In this document: positions 1-6,017 of the stretch, piece after piece | Position numbering within the stretch: the first letter of the stretch is position 1 | Layout: each line of letters opens with the position of its first letter | Assembly (NCBI GenBank): GCA_023441125.1 | Contig: JAEZQV010000186.1 | Span: 1-6,017 of the forward strand | Reading direction: 5' to 3' | Source of the DNA: Bacillota bacterium | GTDB taxonomy: Bacteria; Bacillota_C; Negativicutes; Sporomusales; Sporomusaceae | Length of the DNA stretch: 6,017 nucleotides | Program-made: the position numbers and the translations under genes | Notes under the pieces: generated by a model | Told to the model about the DNA's origin: nothing | The model's database searches: none | The model's input: the letters and a program-made list of their open reading frames with translations, nothing else

Positions 1-428
1 GTCTGGACGTGCTCAAACCGCATATCAAAGTAGAGGAGCAGGCGGAAAAATTCAAGGTAATTATTGGCGTTATCGAGGGAGATACCCATGATATCGGCAA
101 AAACCTGGTTAAGCTTATGCTGGAAACCGCGGGCTTTGACATTATTGACCTGGGACGCGACGTGGCGCCGCAGGCCTTCGTCGACAAAGCCCGGGCGGAG
201 GGGGCGGCGATGATCGCCATTGGCACCCTGATGACCACCACCATGGACGGCATGGGCGAAGTCATCAATATTTTAAAAAATGCTAATATCAGAGACCAGT
301 TTAAAGTCATTGTCGGCGGTGCGCCCATCTCGCAAAGTTTTGCCGACAAAATCGGCGCCGACGGCTATGCCGGCAACGCCGCCCAGGCTGTCAAACTGTC
401 CAAGGATTTGCTGGGAGTAGCAGAGTAA
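1..428 (+). CDS. Corrinoid (B12-binding) methyltransferase protein, MtmC/MtbC/MttC-like, 5'-truncated
   Basis: Partial gene. The frame is open from base 3 with no stop upstream, and 141 residues precede the TAA at 426-428. A GTG at base 9 could be read as a start but lies inside the domain, so the true start is outside the window. The visible part is a cobalamin-binding Rossmann-like domain. It has the base-off/His-on motif D-T-H-D-I-G-K (codons from base 81, the His being the lower axial cobalt ligand), a GTLMTTTM segment matching the S/T-x-L motif, and a GGAPIS turn near the C-terminus. Family members are about 210-220 residues, so roughly 75 residues, mainly the N-terminal helical cap domain, are missing. 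In this family the protein carries the methyl group between a substrate-specific methyltransferase and a second methyltransferase in the cytoplasm. The substrate cannot be told from this fragment. It is more diverged from the two downstream MtmC-like proteins than they are from each other, so it probably partners a different methyltransferase upstream. Confidence 0.9.
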   Translation, partial: LDVLKPHIKVEEQAEKFKVIIGVIEGDTHDIGKNLVKLMLETAGFDIIDLGRDVAPQAFVDKARAEGAAMIAIGTLMTTTMDGMGEVINILKNANIRDQFKVIVGGAPISQSFADKIGADGYAGNAAQAVKLSKDLLGVAE

Positions 429-448
429 CCCGCTGTGGTAATAAAAGC

Positions 449-458
449 AAAGGAGGGG
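449..458 (+). promoter_or_regulatory. Ribosome binding site fixing a GTG start
   Basis: AAAGGAGGGG lies 5 bases before the GTG at 464. It supports GTG rather than a later ATG as the start of the MtaA/MtbA-like gene. The strong Shine-Dalgarno match also suits a Firmicutes-type host. Confidence 0.75.
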
Positions 459-463
459 AGCTT

Positions 464-1486
464 GTGAGTGCATTTAGCCCCAAAGAGCGGTTAGTCAGGG
501 TTTTACACAAGCAGGAAGTAGACCGACCGCCGGTTATTTGTCCCGGCGGCATGATGAATTCAGCCATCGTGGATGTCATGAACAAGACCGGGCACACGCT
601 GCCGGCCGGGCATCATGACGCCGGCATCATGGCCGAATTGGCCCATGATGTGCATGTAAATACCGGTTTTGAAAACTTTGGCATACCGTTTTGCATGACC
701 GTGGAGGCTGAAGTGTTAGGCAGTGAAATCAATTATGGTTCACTTAAATGCGAGCCCAAAATTGAAAAAGAGGTTTTTCCCTCGGTTACGGCCGTAGAGT
801 TTAAAAATATGGGGGCCATGGCGCAAAACGCCCGGGTTAATACCATTGTGCAGGCCACCTATGCCTTAGCGCAAAAATATCCGGATGTGCCGGTGATTGG
901 CAACCTGACGGGGCCGATCAGCACGGCGGCTTCCCTGGTCGATCCCATGCGTTTTTTAAGAGAGCTAAGAAAAGATGCTGCCAATACGCATCGGGTTGTC
1001 GATTATGTAAGCAATCACTTAATTGAGCTGGCGAAGCTGATGATTGACAATGGTGCAACGCTGATCTCCATCGCCGATCCTACCGCGACCGGCGAAATTC
1101 TGGGGCCCAAACTATTCAGTGATTTTGCCGTAAGGTATATCAACAAAGTGGTGGCTGCCGTCCATGCCCTGGATACCCCGGTGATTGTTCATATTTGCGG
1201 CAATGTCAATGCCGTCAAGTCCCATGTGGCCGCTATCCGGGCGGATGCCATCAGCACCGATGCCATGGTTAGCCTGAAATTGCTCAAAGCAGAGTACCCG
1301 CAGCTAACGACCATGGGTAACCTAAGTACATTTCTGCTGGAACTGGGCGAGGAAAAGGCTGTTTCCCAGCATGCCCGGCGGCTTGTTCAGGACGGTATTG
1401 ATATCATCGCCCCGGCTTGCGGTCTTGGTACAGCCACCCCGTTGCCAAACATAGTTGCCATGACGCAAACAGTAAAGGGGAACTAA
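464..1486 (+). CDS. MtaA/MtbA-family methylcorrinoid methyltransferase (uroporphyrinogen decarboxylase fold)
   Basis: 340 residues, the usual size for the MtaA/MtbA/CmuA-type family. The start is GTG at 464, preceded by a strong ribosome binding site. The N-terminal segment (PKERLVRVLHKQEVDRPPV, about residues 6-24) is typical of the uroporphyrinogen-decarboxylase-like fold. The zinc-binding signature is visible as H243-x-C245 (in VHICGN) and C319 (in APACG), the ligands that activate the acceptor thiol in MtaA and MtbA. In methanogens these enzymes move the methyl group from the methyl-Co(III) corrinoid protein to coenzyme M. Bacterial homologues next to corrinoid proteins, for example in acetogens, are thought to use tetrahydrofolate instead. 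The acceptor cannot be decided from sequence alone; a bacterial host makes tetrahydrofolate more likely. It sits 35 bases after a corrinoid protein gene and 3 bases before the activase gene, so it is almost certainly co-transcribed. Family assignment is firm and acceptor assignment is inference. Confidence 0.88.
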   Translation: MSAFSPKERLVRVLHKQEVDRPPVICPGGMMNSAIVDVMNKTGHTLPAGHHDAGIMAELAHDVHVNTGFENFGIPFCMTVEAEVLGSEINYGSLKCEPKIEKEVFPSVTAVEFKNMGAMAQNARVNTIVQATYALAQKYPDVPVIGNLTGPISTAASLVDPMRFLRELRKDAANTHRVVDYVSNHLIELAKLMIDNGATLISIADPTATGEILGPKLFSDFAVRYINKVVAAVHALDTPVIVHICGNVNAVKSHVAAIRADAISTDAMVSLKLLKAEYPQLTTMGNLSTFLLELGEEKAVSQHARRLVQDGIDIIAPACGLGTATPLPNIVAMTQTVKGN

Positions 1487-1489
1487 ACG

Positions 1490-3160
1490 ATGGTAAAGAT
1501 TACTTTTGTAGAAAAAGGTATTGTCGCCGAAGTGCCTGCCGGTACTACTATTCTGGCGGCAGCGCGTAAAGTTGGGGTGATGATTGAGTCTCCCTGCAGC
1601 GCGGAAGGTACCTGCGGCAAGTGCAAGGTCAGAGTCAGCCCCCGGCAGCTTGCCTGTCTGCAACAAGCGGGGGACCATCAGCTTTCCCAGGAGGAGGCAG
1701 CCACCGGCTTGGTGCTGGCCTGTCAGGCCAAAGCCATCGGCGATGTGGCTGTTGAGGAGATTGCCAACAATCAGAATAAGACATTAAAAATTCTGGACCA
1801 TGGGGAAAGCTTTGTCATTCAGATCAACAGTTTTATTACAAAAGAGTATGACGGCCGGGCGAAAACAATAGTCTATGCCGGCGGCAGGGTCATTGGTGAG
1901 GAAGCGGGCGACACGGCCGGACTGAATTACGGGGTGGTAGTGGATATTGGCACAACTACCGTTGTGGCGTCGCTGGTAGATATCGCTACCGGCCATGAGC
2001 TGGCGGCGGTAGCGGCGCTCAATCCGCAAAGCCTGCAGGCGCAGGATGTACTTTCCCGAATAAAATTTGCCTCCGGTGAACAGGGCCTGAAGAAAATGTA
2101 TGGCGATATTATCAGGGAAATCAACCGGATGGTTGCCGAGCTTGCCCAGCAAACCGGCGTGCGTCCGGAAAATATTTATGAGGTTATTTTCAGCGGCAAC
2201 ACCTGCATGCTTCATTTGGCAGCCAATGTCAATCCCTATTCGCTGGGCAAATATCCCTATGAGCCGCAAATCCGGGGCGGCAGCCATCTCAGCGCAGTTA
2301 CGCACCGGCTGAATATCAGCCGCTTTGGCCTAATCTATCTGCCGCCGATTATTTCAGCCTATGTCGGTCCGGATATCACCTCGGGCGTGTTGGCGTCAAG
2401 ACTGCAGGACCGCCAGGGCGTTACCCTGTTTGTCGATATTGGCACCAACGGCGAGATGGTAATCAGCGCAGACGGCCGGCTGTCGGCAACCTCGACCGCC
2501 GCTGGCCCGGCCTTTGAAGGCATGAATATTACCCATGGCATGCGGGCGGCCAACGGGGCTATCGAATTGTTTGATATCGAAGCGGACGGCAGCATTACCG
2601 TTAAGACCATTGGCGAAGCCAAACCGGTTGGTATTTGCGGCAGCGGGCTTTTAGACATTGTCGGCGAACTGGTAGCTCATCAGGTCATTGGCAAAAACGG
2701 CAAGTTCGTTAACCCGGAAACGGCGGCGCTGCAACCTGAACTAAAGCAGCGGCTGGTACGGCAGGACGGCAAGCTGGTCTTCAAAGTGGCCGAAGGCGTA
2801 TTTCTCACCCAGAAAGACGTTCGCCAGGTGCAACTGGCCAAAGGCGCAGTCCGGTCCGGGATTGAGTTCTTGCTGAAGAGCAAAGGCGTTCAGGCCGGGC
2901 AGGTTGATAAGGTATTGATTGCCGGCTCCTTCGGCTATCATCTCCGGGCCAAAAGTCTGATCAATATTGGTTTATTGCCGGAGGCTTTTGACGGCAAAAT
3001 TGATTTTATCGGCAATACCTCCAAGTCCGGTGGGCGGGCCTTTTTGCTGAATACTGCCTACCGGCGGGAAATGGAAGCCCTGGTGGGCGGCATTGAAGAG
3101 GTTGAACTGGCCAATCATGAGGACTTCGACAAAGTTTTTGTAGCCTGTCTGGGCTTTTAA
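1490..3160 (+). CDS. RACo-like corrinoid reductive activase (2Fe-2S plus ASKHA ATPase)
   Basis: 556 residues, starting at ATG only 3 bases after the previous stop, with an AAAGGGGAA ribosome binding site inside the end of the upstream gene. Residues 1 to about 95 are a plant-type 2Fe-2S ferredoxin domain with cysteines C36, C42, C45 and C78 (C-x5-C-x2-C...C). A short linker (about 96-145) follows, then the RACo middle and ASKHA-type ATPase regions. Visible nucleotide-binding motifs are VVDIGTTT (150-157), LFVDIGTNGEM (313-323), GICGSG (381-386) and IAGSFG (477-482). RACo-type proteins use ATP to drive low-potential electron transfer that returns inactive Co(II) corrinoid to the active Co(I) state. 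The methanogen counterpart RamA instead carries C-terminal 4Fe-4S clusters, which are absent here: the C-terminus ends in VACLGF with no CxxCxxC pattern. It probably services all corrinoid proteins in the cluster. It looks somewhat shorter than the Carboxydothermus RACo (about 630 residues from memory), with a compact linker. Confidence 0.9.
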   Translation: MVKITFVEKGIVAEVPAGTTILAAARKVGVMIESPCSAEGTCGKCKVRVSPRQLACLQQAGDHQLSQEEAATGLVLACQAKAIGDVAVEEIANNQNKTLKILDHGESFVIQINSFITKEYDGRAKTIVYAGGRVIGEEAGDTAGLNYGVVVDIGTTTVVASLVDIATGHELAAVAALNPQSLQAQDVLSRIKFASGEQGLKKMYGDIIREINRMVAELAQQTGVRPENIYEVIFSGNTCMLHLAANVNPYSLGKYPYEPQIRGGSHLSAVTHRLNISRFGLIYLPPIISAYVGPDITSGVLASRLQDRQGVTLFVDIGTNGEMVISADGRLSATSTAAGPAFEGMNITHGMRAANGAIELFDIEADGSITVKTIGEAKPVGICGSGLLDIVGELVAHQVIGKNGKFVNPETAALQPELKQRLVRQDGKLVFKVAEGVFLTQKDVRQVQLAKGAVRSGIEFLLKSKGVQAGQVDKVLIAGSFGYHLRAKSLINIGLLPEAFDGKIDFIGNTSKSGGRAFLLNTAYRREMEALVGGIEEVELANHEDFDKVFVACLGF

Positions 3161-3193
3161 ATCGCGGCAGAACTAACCGACGGAGGCAGGGAT

Positions 3194-3868
3194 ATGAGCC
3201 GACGCAAAATTTTGGAGAAACTCCGCAAAGCAGTTGAACAAATGGAGGCGCCTTTGGCGGAAAAAGCCGCCAGAGAGGCAGTGGCTGCCGGCCTTGATCC
3301 GGTTGTGGCCATCAATGAAGGCTTGGCGGCCGGCATGAAAAGAGTAAGTGAGCTGTTTGACGAGGGGGAGGTGTTTGTTCCTCATCTGCTGGTAGCGGCT
3401 GAAGCTTTCGAAACCGGCGTGGCCATCCTGACCGAGTCCATGTCCCGGGAGACCAGGGAACAGGCTTCGCAGGGCAGAGTGCTTATCCACACCGTTCAGG
3501 GCGATATTCATGATATCGGCAAAAATATTGTGAAGACCATGCTGTCGGCGAGCGGTTTCGAGGTCATTGATTTAGGCCGGGATGTGCCGGTGGAGACAGT
3601 GGCTGCCAAGGCCCGGGAACTTAAGGTGGATATTATCGCCGGGGCGGCGCTGATGACCACCACGATGCCGGCGCAGCGGGAGCTTGTCGAGTGTCTTGAG
3701 GACCAGGGCATTCGCCGGCAATTTAAACTGCTGTTCGGCGGTACGCCGGTATCGGATGAATGGGTCAGGCGGATCGGGGCGGACGGCTATGCCGACAGCG
3801 CCTCGGCGGCTATTGAAGTGGCAAGACGGCTCATGGCCGAAAAAAAGGCAAAAATTGTTCTTGACTAA
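3194..3868 (+). CDS. mtmC: Corrinoid protein, MtmC-like, first of tandem pair
   Basis: 224 residues, complete. ATG at 3194 follows the ribosome binding site CGGAGGCAGG. Residues 1 to about 90 form the helical cap domain (B12-binding_2 type, with AAGLDPVVAINEGLAAGM at about 31-48 and LFDEGEVFVPHLL at 54-66). Residues about 95-215 form the Rossmann-like cobalamin domain. Seen directly: GDIHDIGK at 103-110 with H106 as the expected axial cobalt ligand, AALMTTTMPAQ at 151-161 (S/T-x-L region), and FGGTPVS at 181-187 near the dimethylbenzimidazole pocket. In the family it accepts a methyl group from MtmB and passes it to the MtbA-type enzyme. The MtmC label rests on the mtmB gene two positions downstream and on general similarity; trimethylamine and dimethylamine corrinoid proteins are close relatives. 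The C-terminus ends in a lysine-rich tail (EKKAKIVLD) missing from its paralogue. Confidence 0.88.
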   Translation: MSRRKILEKLRKAVEQMEAPLAEKAAREAVAAGLDPVVAINEGLAAGMKRVSELFDEGEVFVPHLLVAAEAFETGVAILTESMSRETREQASQGRVLIHTVQGDIHDIGKNIVKTMLSASGFEVIDLGRDVPVETVAAKARELKVDIIAGAALMTTTMPAQRELVECLEDQGIRRQFKLLFGGTPVSDEWVRRIGADGYADSASAAIEVARRLMAEKKAKIVLD

Positions 3869-3942
3869 GTCATTCCCAAAAGTTTTCAAATAGATAAAAG
3901 TATGGACAACACGAATGGAAACTGCAAATGGGATGGAAAAAC

Positions 3943-3951
3943 AGGAGGTGA
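3943..3951 (+). promoter_or_regulatory. Ribosome binding site that decides the start of the second corrinoid gene
   Basis: AGGAGGTGA is a near-perfect Shine-Dalgarno sequence 5 bases before the ATG at 3957. The in-frame ATG at 3915 has no comparable site and would add 14 residues that do not resemble the start of the paralogue. The start is therefore placed at 3957. Confidence 0.85.
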
Positions 3952-3956
3952 ACCCC

Positions 3957-4622
3957 ATGAGAGAAGAGGAAGAAAAAATTCTGGCAAAGCTGAAAACCGC
4001 GGTGGAAGAAATGGAGAGCGAAATGGCGGAAGCAGCGGCGCGAGAGGCGCTGGCCGCAGGCTTAGACCCCATCGTGGCCATCAACGACGGTCTGGCCGCC
4101 GGCATGCAGACTATGAGCAACCTGTTTGACGAGGGCGAAGTATTTGTGCCCCAACTGGTGGTGGCGGCCGATGCCTTTGAAGCGGCGGTGGCCATCCTGA
4201 CCGGTTCCATGTCGGACGAAGACAAAACCAAGGCCTCCAAGGGCAAGGTGCTCTTGCATACTGTCCAGGGAGACATTCATGACATTGGCAAAAATATTGT
4301 CAAAACCATGCTGGCAGCCAGCGGCTTCGAAGTCATCGACCTGGGACGGGATGTAGCCGTGGAGGAAGTGGTGGTCCAGGCCAAGGCCCACCGGGTGGAT
4401 ATCATTGCCGGGGCGGCGCTGATGACCACCACCATGCCGGCCCAGCGGGACATCGTCAACCTGCTCAAGGAAGAAGGCATCCGCGAACAGTTTAAATGTT
4501 TGTTCGGCGGGGCGCCGGTATCAGCCGCATGGGTGGCCAAAATCGGCGGCGACGCCTATGCCGAAACGGCCTCGGCCGCGGTGGAGCAGGCAAAAATCTT
4601 AGTAGCTGAACTACGGGGGTGA
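3957..4622 (+). CDS. mtmC: Corrinoid protein, MtmC-like, second of tandem pair
   Basis: 221 residues from ATG 3957, ending with TGA. The domain order matches the preceding gene: helical cap (about residues 5-92, including AAGLDPIVAINDGLAAGM and LFDEGEVFVPQL), then the cobalamin-binding domain. GDIHDIGK is at 105-112 with H108 as the expected axial ligand, followed by AALMTTTMPAQ (153-163) and FGGAPVS (183-189). By eye roughly two thirds of residues are identical to the upstream paralogue, and the B12-contact segments are almost unchanged. It ends 7 bases before the mtmB start, whose ribosome binding site overlaps its stop codon, so it is the most direct candidate for the MtmB partner. An 88-base gap separates it from the first copy, the longest intergenic space here, with no clear terminator or promoter. 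Family assignment is firm; specificity for monomethylamine is inferred from the mtmB linkage. Confidence 0.9.
   Translation: MREEEEKILAKLKTAVEEMESEMAEAAAREALAAGLDPIVAINDGLAAGMQTMSNLFDEGEVFVPQLVVAADAFEAAVAILTGSMSDEDKTKASKGKVLLHTVQGDIHDIGKNIVKTMLAASGFEVIDLGRDVAVEEVVVQAKAHRVDIIAGAALMTTTMPAQRDIVNLLKEEGIREQFKCLFGGAPVSAAWVAKIGGDAYAETASAAVEQAKILVAELRG
4614..4622 (+). promoter_or_regulatory. Ribosome binding site of mtmB overlapping the mtmC stop
   Basis: GGGGGTGA, ending in the TGA stop of the upstream corrinoid gene, sits 7 bases before the ATG at 4630. This arrangement suggests translational coupling between the corrinoid protein and MtmB. Confidence 0.6.
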
Positions 4623-4629
4623 AAAGCAC

Positions 4630-6017
4630 ATGGCCATAGCCAAAGCGTTAACGGTATTTGATATCTATGAACGGGCCAAAACCGGCCCGAAGGTAGACGA
4701 AAAAGAATGGGATTTTAAAATCATCCCGCAGACCGCCAGCAGGCTGAAGAACAAATACAACATCAAAATGGACAAAAAACAAATCATTCCGACCGACCCG
4801 GCACTCATCAACAACCTGTTTCAAGCCGGGCTGGAAATGCTGGTCGAGTGCGGCGTATACTGCATCGACACCAATAAAGTCATCAAATACAGTGAAGACG
4901 AAGTCTGGGCCTCAATCAAGGCAGCGCCCAAACGCGTCATCTACGGGGAAGGCAAACAAGCCCGGGAACTGGCGTGCCGCAGCTACAAAGACAAAAGGCC
5001 GCCGCTGATTCAGGGCGGACCGACCGGCGCGCCGTGTTCTGAGGAACACTTCCTGGCCATCCATCAATCCTATGCCCAGGAACCGCTGGTGGACACCATT
5101 GTCGACGGCGTCCTGCAGACCATCAAAGGTCATGACCCGGTGCCGCAGAGCCCGTGGGAAATCGCGGCCGTCAAGTCGGAAGCCATCCTGGTGAGAGCGG
5201 CGCAGGACCGGGCCGGGCGAACCGGCATGGGCCTCTAGGGGAATGAAACCTCCCTGTCCCCCGCCGGCGTAATTGCCGCCGACTTTCCCGGGGGAATGAG
5301 GCCGTCTGACAGCCATGAAGTATCCCAGCTGAATGAGCTGAAAATCGATGTAGGTGCATTGGTTTTCACCGCGCATTATGTACTGGCTGGCAATACCATC
5401 ATGTGCGAACAGATGCCAATCTACGGCGGCTACGCCGGTGGGCTGGAAGAGACCACCATCGTGGACGTAGCCACCACCATCAACTCCTTTGTCATGACCC
5501 AGGCCACCTGGCATTTGGACGGCCCGGTGCATGTGCGGTGGGGCATAACGACAGCCAGAGAGGCTCTGGCGGTAGCGGGGCACGCCGCCATGGCGATTGA
5601 AGCCAACACCGATCTGATGCTGGGGAACCAATACTATACCCTGGCGGGGCCGTGCACCGTCATGTGCCTGCTGGAAACGGCGGCGCAGGCCATAACCGAT
5701 ACGGCGAGCGGCCGGGAAGTACTGTCCGGGGTGGCAGCCAGCAAAGGGGTGGCCACTAATTACACGACCGGGCTGGAAGCGCGGCTGATGGCCGAAGTAG
5801 CGTATGCGGTGGCGGGTCTGGCGACCGAAAGGGTCAATGAAATCCTGGATAAACTGGTGGGGCTGTATGAGAAGGATTACAAGACGGCGCCCAAGGGCAA
5901 ACCGTTTGAAGAATGCTATGATGTGGCCAAACTGGTGCCGACGCCGGAATACCTGGCGGTCTATGATGAGGCGGTTAAGATTCTGACGGATTTGGGTCTC
6001 GATTACTGGTCCAAAAA
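4630..6017 (+). CDS. mtmB: Monomethylamine:corrinoid methyltransferase MtmB, pyrrolysine-containing, 3' end cut by window
   Basis: One frame runs from ATG 4630 to the window end (462 full codons plus 2 bases), interrupted only by TAG at codon 203. MtmB of Methanosarcina barkeri is 458 residues with pyrrolysine at 202, so both length and position fit. Family sequence lies on both sides of the TAG: before it QGGPTGAP, VDTIVDGV and GRTGMGL; after it GNETSLSP, DSHEVSQLNELKID, EQMPIYGGYAGG, HLDGPVH, GNQYY and TDTASGRE. With pyrrolysine counted, E230, E260, Q334 and Y336 line up by motif with E229, E259, Q333 and Y335 around the pyrrolysine in the M. barkeri structure (recalled, not computed). The enzyme, a TIM barrel, transfers the methyl of monomethylamine to the Co(I) corrinoid of MtmC, releasing ammonia. 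If TAG were read as stop, a 202-residue fragment lacking half the barrel would result. The frame ends in LGLDYWSK, near the family C-terminus, so only a few codons are probably missing. Confidence 0.95.
5236..5238 (+). other. In-frame amber codon TAG encoding pyrrolysine (Pyl203 of MtmB)
   Basis: The TAG falls between GRTGMGL and GNETSLS, exactly where M. barkeri MtmB has pyrrolysine (GRPGMGV-Pyl-GPETSLS, from memory). Downstream, 259 codons stay open in the same frame and keep the family's motifs, so this is a sense codon and not a nonsense mutation. Decoding needs an amber-suppressing tRNA-Pyl and pyrrolysyl-tRNA synthetase, which are not in this window. Confidence 0.93.
5236..5261 (+). promoter_or_regulatory. 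Possible PYLIS-like stem-loop at the pyrrolysine codon
   Basis: Two mutually exclusive short hairpins can form just after the TAG. One pairs AGGGG (5237-5241) with TCCCT (5251-5255) around a 9-base loop, including one G-U pair. The other pairs GGGGA (5238-5242) with TCCCC (5257-5261) around a 14-base loop. A stem-loop called PYLIS was proposed directly after the UAG in methanogen mtmB mRNA, though later work showed it is not strictly required. The stems here are short and the bases also encode a conserved peptide, so this is tentative. Confidence 0.3.

Follow-up and report, generated by a model that had tools for sequence, protein, structure and literature searches.

Throughout, the window denotes the entire 6017-base stretch of DNA that was analyzed; it holds a single row of co-directed genes, with mtmB in last place and extending to the window's end. 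The features identified are given below with the basis for each in parentheses.

3..428, + strand: MtbC/MttC-type corrinoid-binding protein, C-terminal part, cut by the window start (PF02310; NF041607 at 153 bits and TIGR02370 at 143 bits, both below their whole-protein cut-offs)
464..1486, + strand: predicted MtbA-like methylcorrinoid methyltransferase of URO-D fold (PF01208; NF004889 at 373 bits, cut-off 244)
1490..3160, + strand: RACo-type corrinoid activator with a 2Fe-2S domain (PF14574, PF17651, PF00111; TIGR04270 at 121 bits, below the cut-off of 500)
3194..3868, + strand: methyltransferase-cognate corrinoid protein (TIGR02370 at 234.5 bits, cut-off 215.3)
3915..4622, + strand: methyltransferase-cognate corrinoid protein, adjoining mtmB in relatives (TIGR02370 at 236.5 bits, cut-off 215.3)
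4630..6017, + strand: mtmB, monomethylamine methyltransferase, 462 codons in the window, 3' end open (PF05369 at 753 bits; 1tv2/1l2q)
5236..5238, + strand: TAG codon 203, predicted pyrrolysine (aligned with Pyl202; TAG in 39/39 aligned relatives)
5236..5335, + strand: Rfam PYLIS_1 match, stems without covariation support in bacteria (RF01982 at 77.2 bits, gathering threshold 70)
5327..5339, + strand: small alternative hairpin, AGCU(5)AGCU (its four pairs form in 40/40 sequences, 39/39 distinct rows)
5332..5377, + strand: conserved predicted RNA hairpin, 5332-5338 pairing with 5371-5377 and 5340-5351 with 5356-5367, loop AGGU at 5352-5355 (synonymous constraint, folding, pair counts)

For the RACo-type protein at 1490..3160 we infer a RamA-like function, and the corrinoid protein at 3915..4622 is likely to be MtmC, with a true start that may lie at the ATG at 3957. 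The five genes upstream of mtmB terminate in TAA (four) or TGA (one). A tRNA-Gln reported by ARAGORN at 4140-4224 falls inside a corrinoid-protein gene and was taken as probably false. A plasmid search returned no match; one stretch matched a pattern among viral contigs, which included no relative.

The mtmB reading frame and TAG codon 203

An earlier note on this DNA had proposed that mtmB reads through an in-frame TAG. From its ATG at 4630 the gene does reach a TAG at codon 203 (5236-5238) and then continues, in the same frame, through 259 open codons to 6015, the terminator and last codon or codons falling beyond the end of the window. On base composition an open stretch of this length has a probability of about 5e-5, and the other two forward frames contain 14 stops each. 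The proposed identity of the product held equally well: the read-through protein matches 450 of the 450 positions of PF05369 (753 bits, cut-off 25), the pieces before and after the TAG separately accounting for positions 1-195 and 197-450. Acidic and Gln/Tyr residues anticipated beyond the TAG are present as E230, E260, Q334 and Y336, which we take to be the Methanosarcina barkeri pocket residues Glu229, Glu259, Gln333 and Tyr335. Alignment with M. barkeri MtmB, over residues 2-457, places the TAG at its pyrrolysine, in a column given as X in PDB 1l2q_A and as K in 1tv2_A; the residue is numbered Pyl202 in an excerpt of PMC9842639. A plain table-11 reading of mtmB ends at 5238. Regarding the forecast that automatic annotation would report a 202-residue fragment and possibly a second, the second part is borne out, since C-terminal pieces of about 254-267 amino acids exist as database proteins (among the 120 of 202 matches listed); pieces of 202 residues lay outside the length limits of the search.

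All 39 aligned close relatives, from 37 genomes, carry TAG at the position of codon 203 (21/21 and 18/18 in the two sets compared), and the record titles of TAG-bearing relatives span Firmicutes, actinobacteria and Desulfobulbaceae. The closest relative seen, denoted G015, is collinear with the window and shares 84.6% of nucleotides over 38-6017, and of the named relatives Sporomusa silvacetica comes closest across the full window (77.5% for 3-6017). In a tree built from 40 mtmB genes the window pairs with G015 (support 100/99), within a wider group that also includes S. silvacetica and Sporomusa sp. KB1 (97/97).

When the window was compared with 21 sequences, a set to which two genomes contribute two copies each, pN/pS was 0.04-0.35 before the TAG and 0.06-0.22 after it; judged by these ratios, purifying selection acts on both sides of the codon. 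Through the 19 codons that separate the TAG from the next ATG, 15 of the 21 comparisons revealed no amino-acid change despite heavy synonymous change, and the remaining six (G009-G013 and G020) gave pN/pS values of at most 0.273. Conservation of amino acids in this stretch implies that it is translated in frame with the gene start. Re-initiation at the ATG at 5296 was rejected on the same grounds, as it would leave codons 204-222 untranslated.

The pyrrolysine system in relatives of the window

In G015, genes for PylSc, PylB, PylC, PylD and PylSn occur in that order, all exceeding curated NCBIfam cut-offs, and a tRNA-Pyl(CTA) gene (L042, 11947-12018) lies between an mtmB remnant and the MtbA-like gene that precedes pylSc; the remnant is upstream of the pyl genes, and the block downstream of them has the gene order of the window. 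PylSc exceeded its cut-off in all 13 genomes of the first set and in one of 14 controls, the latter being Methanosarcina acetivorans, a methanogen having the system. Within the family of S. silvacetica mtmB occurs in nine of 12 genomes, and PylSc over its cut-off together with PylSn in exactly those nine, all three genomes without mtmB having neither. ARAGORN located tRNA-Pyl in 17 of the 27 loci scanned, representing 15 genomes, and did not find it in the other ten; among these, L007, L013 and L015 hold kilobases of sequence behind mtmB, and their pylT either lies elsewhere in the genome or was missed. By comparison with these relatives we infer that the window's host has the same pyl system, its pyl genes being probably upstream of the window. 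Genomes G002, G003, G016 and G020 each carry two or three separate PylSc/PylSn pairs (three in Sporomusa acidovorans), which possibly constitute distinct PylRS/tRNA-Pyl pairs in one cell.

The further claim that such systems are uncommon in bacteria agrees with the occurrence of TAG-bearing mtmB in 4/113, 3/391, 14/82, 2/395 and 1/296 genomes of five sampled groups (threshold E <= 1e-60, each count including the genome used as center). In the family of Sporomusa, with nine of 12 genomes, pyrrolysine mtmB is ordinary. Genes for pyrrolysine synthesis in S. silvacetica have been published (excerpt of PMC5609420), and with pyrrolysine in Sporomusa already in print the mtmB gene itself extends a known story.

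The two mtmB copies of S. silvacetica differ at 11 bases, and in the upstream one (L002:10001-11389) codon 260, which is GAG in its counterpart, is a further in-frame TAG. Column 260 is presumably the glutamate of the MtmB pocket, and either this copy is decaying or pyrrolysine replaces that glutamate. The G015 remnant, 100 amino acids long (L042:11584-11886, family positions 357-450), is beside the tRNA-Pyl gene, the intact mtmB being the downstream copy and the one that matches the window. In both genomes, then, the copy adjoining pylT is the damaged one or the one with the extra TAG. Both mtmB copies of Sporomusa sp. KB1 contain 100-N assembly gaps.

Among distant MtmB homologues (31-36% identity) the stop was absent in ten of ten, and one non-pyrrolysine homologue with a demonstrated function is MtqB (excerpt of PMC13044021). 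A check of residues at position 203 and in the pocket, confined to proteins of at least 420 amino acids out of 120, also revealed five full-length MtmB proteins (P0001-P0005; 49-79% identity) in which Q, C or K occupies the place of pyrrolysine. These are either natural pyrrolysine-free forms or products of gene calling under another code; a Q at position 203, in particular, may arise where the code applied translates TAG as Q.

A pyrrolysine MtmB in a bacterial host, as the earlier note had proposed, remains the best reading, in view of the Pyl202 alignment, the TAG in 39/39 relatives, the full pyl set of G015 and the distribution of PylSc (13/13 versus 1/14). Very probably, the TAG at codon 203 is decoded as pyrrolysine by the predicted pyl system of the host, which would give a working monomethylamine methyltransferase from an mRNA with a predicted conserved hairpin 97-142 nt from the U of the UAG. 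In the scheme envisaged, tRNA-Pyl(CUA), charged by PylSc/PylSn, would compete with release factor at the UAG, with PylB, PylC and PylD making the pyrrolysine; MtmB would bind methylamine on its pyrrolysine and hand the methyl group over to the corrinoid protein whose gene lies immediately upstream, the MtbA-like protein would then channel this group into the carbon pathway, and oxidized corrinoid would be re-activated by the RACo-type protein.

Several described systems invite comparison. MtmB1 of M. barkeri (1l2q, 1tv2) is alike over residues 2-457, with pyrrolysine in the same place; the window differs in its bacterial operon with MtbA-like and RACo-type partners, in the split PylSc/PylSn of its relatives, and in the hairpin beyond the PYLIS region, known here only from bacterial mtmB DNA. 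The pyl-mtmB locus of S. silvacetica DSM 10669 (L001, L002) is collinear with window positions 3-6017 and has TAG 203 and the hairpin in common with it; it belongs to another species, in whose genome mtmB is present twice, one of the copies bearing a second TAG. Likened by description, in an excerpt of PMC2933860, the mtmB/mttC/mtbA/ramA cluster of Desulfotomaculum acetoxidans has the same set of partner genes, including a bacterial MtbA homologue. Non-pyrrolysine homologues such as MtqB (excerpt of PMC13044021) share the Pfam family of the window's MtmB but lack the TAG, and in most cases seen their identity to the window's protein is roughly one third.

Predicted RNA structure downstream of the UAG

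The PYLIS_1 model (RF01982) matches the window from the TAG itself (5236-5335) at 77.2 bits, above the gathering threshold of 70. As a working element it was rejected, its stems failing the pair counts: in 39 distinct bacterial rows the 15 pairs were formed in 72.8% of cells compared with 74.2% in shuffles, 499 of 500 shuffles being as high, and compensatory change was not supported. Pairing did exceed that of slid versions (25-51%), as expected of a model built on such sequences. At free third positions several PYLIS_1 pairs fail to form in most cases, RNAalifold found no compensatory pair in the first 100 nt, and codons 204-222 displayed no significant synonymous constraint (z -0.8). In archaea and E. 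coli, according to excerpts of PMC2933860, PMC8211752 and PMC3639795, no cis element is required and PYLIS covariance is limited, yet replacing or changing PYLIS lowers yield. The excerpt of PMC3639795 takes the PYLIS region as the 100 bases after the UAG and reports no common structure in mttB, in agreement with our mttB fold scan (below).

A distinct candidate element, the hairpin at 5332-5377, lies almost wholly beyond the 3' end of PYLIS_1, at 97-142 nt counted from the U of the UAG. Synonymous variation in mtmB is lowest over codons 233-252 (z down to -6.74 in 29 less redundant sequences); this dip is the strongest of the gene, was reached in none of 5000 column permutations, and was also seen with 18 and with 13 sequences. 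The 29-sequence sets omit 11 of the 40 sequences, being same-genome copies or near-identical rows (G001a, G003a, G003b, G006, G542, G536, G537, G534, G539, G543 and G533), and the 18-row sets omit four of 22 rows; in the 39-row alignment G003a, which repeated G003b, was counted once.

Folding points to the same place. In a scan of 15-codon windows with 24 of the 40 rows (one further analysis used 28 of 39), compared with shuffles that preserve the protein sequence and take codons according to the usage of the gene itself, codons 235-249 had a mean z of -3.37, the most extreme of 150 windows, for which the overall mean was -0.24 (SD 0.48). With 29 sequences and 300 shuffles the mean z was -3.36, negative in 28 of 29, the sole exception being G959, an mtmB with a broken frame. 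A single 160-nt fold from the window did not stand out (z -1.61; 12 of 200 shuffles folded as well). RNAalifold, given 180 columns, found the top of the hairpin unaided. Its 19 pairs are formed in 88.8% of cells (33-47% when slid), and the seven top pairs together with the alternative hairpin at 5327-5339, whose formation would be at the expense of the larger hairpin's outer stem, in 98.4% (24-36% when slid). Core pairs are broken in two lineages, G010 and G959.

Covariation provides a more limited picture. Cells with two-sided change were more numerous than in all 500 shuffles (24 versus 9.2 for the top pairs plus alternative hairpin; 28 versus 11.2 in the other count), but neither the number of pairs with two-sided change nor that of pair types was above shuffles, being reached by 168 and 350 of 500, and by 131 and 419 of 500. 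At the third positions of codons 240 and 243, 21 of the 40 sequences have T-A, 18 have C-G and one has C-A, so that these bases pair in 39. Among 5454 third-position pairs lying 2-13 codons apart, three passed the filter, the other two with only three and one sequences of the second type; 240/243 is the only one with both pair types common. Codon 243 is also alone among 33 alanine columns in having a purine as its last base in every sequence. On the tree the 240/243 switch is one deep event, plus the break in G010; the other varying pairs include 111/126 with five changes and 94/102 with four. The three pairs tested on the tree gave at most three independent contrasts, too few for a sign test. 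The case for the hairpin, as drawn from these alignments, is one of synonymous constraint and folding more than of covariation.

Among the loci searched, the hairpin was not encountered outside pyrrolysine mtmB. A fold scan of 23 of the 31 TAG-bearing mttB matches revealed nothing as strong, with extremes of -1.64 (codons 385-399) and -1.52 (codons 331-345, or 55-99 nt from the UAG) against a gene mean of -0.24 (SD 0.37); a weak structure at mttB codons 331-345 is possible. Synonymous constraint in the same 23 genes, unlike that in mtmB, centers on the UAG itself (codons 310-321 of L105; family-wise 0.009). A covariance model of the hairpin, applied to 54 loci, gave 17 matches of at least 48.5 bits, all of them at mtmB and representing 16 genes, of which one occurs in two loci; as every match belongs to the model's alignment or is identical to a member, only absence elsewhere is informative. 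Away from mtmB in these loci, matches did not exceed 20.8 bits; the best score on 22 pyrrolysine mttB genes was 15.6 bits, and ten non-pyrrolysine mtmB loci gave 10.2 bits at most. A generic pyrrolysine element was rejected for want of a comparable hairpin in pyrrolysine mttB, and the absence of the hairpin there and in the non-pyrrolysine mtmB loci scanned makes it look like an mtmB element of pyrrolysine bacteria rather than a general pyrrolysine signal. No description of it turned up in searches of an open-access library, and it may already be known from subscription journals. The hairpin looks new, the gene being of a known kind.

Possible roles of the hairpin

From these sequence patterns the hairpin may be a decoding or regulatory signal, and a role in decoding the UAG is a guess. 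There is close to an even chance that it serves some other end: mRNA processing, recognition by an RNA-binding protein, or slowing of the ribosome while the TIM barrel folds. The ribosome footprint extends 12-15 nt ahead of the A site, and an element about 100 nt past the UAG is too distant to touch a ribosome positioned at that codon; among the loci searched, moreover, the hairpin occurs in mtmB only. Set against such a role is the position of the hairpin behind the Pyl codon, in a gene that is followed by tRNA-Pyl in many relatives, which is suggestive and falls short of proof.

Use of UAG as a terminator bears on another reading. Of the 37 mtmB genes whose terminator is visible, six close with TAG (L004, L006, L007, L079, L089 and L090); UAG must also serve as a stop in such hosts, and would be both pyrrolysine and stop within one gene. 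In four of the six, a second TAG was observed 4 to 25 codons further on. Where UAG is also a stop a truncated 202-residue product is possible, and the UAG of codon 203 might be read in part, with 202-residue and full-length proteins made in a regulated ratio set by the hairpin. We consider this unlikely, while granting it substantial weight: excerpts of PMC3639795 and PMC2933860 describe product mixtures and a modest effect of PYLIS, in E. coli or methanogens, but pyrrolysine mttB has no comparable hairpin, so that there is no general need for one.

It appears improbable that the hairpin arises as a by-product of constraint on protein or codons and is no RNA element. The protein fixes most of its paired positions, these being first or second positions of codons, and independent compensatory changes are scarce; nevertheless, shuffles that keep both the protein and the gene's codon usage lose the fold (mean z -3.36, 28/29), the third positions of codons 240 and 243 pair in 39/40 sequences and are unique among 5454 in having both types common, and synonymous constraint peaks at the hairpin. 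Least credible, and extremely improbable, is a pseudogene created by nonsense mutation that makes only a 202-residue piece, for although a table-11 reading stops at 5238 and mtmB copies do decay (the sister copy in G015 is a remnant), the TAG occupies the same codon in 39/39 relatives across Firmicutes, actinobacteria and Desulfobulbaceae and the window copy has no other stop or frame change and a low pN/pS after the TAG, this conservation and selection being the grounds on which a sequencing error or pseudogene was rejected.

The account that we favor for a first test, with modest confidence, is that the hairpin is regulatory and tied to ribosomes passing the UAG. Stated specifically, it would be a cis-acting sensor or enhancer of decoding, folding upon release at the UAG and opened by each ribosome that passes with pyrrolysine, and would thereby couple reading of the UAG to expression of mtmB and, where pylT/pylS follow, of the pyl genes; in this form the proposal is tentative and on the unlikely side. 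If true, it would represent a genuine bacterial pyrrolysine signal, situated outside the region examined by the 100-nt PYLIS studies. The hairpin bears on an open question, namely what, if anything, tells the ribosome that a UAG denotes pyrrolysine rather than stop; it is a bacterial element lying immediately beyond the region studied in archaea and E. coli, in genes of which some also end in UAG. For the organisms concerned, Sporomusa-type acetogens are likely to grow on methylamine by using pyrrolysine.
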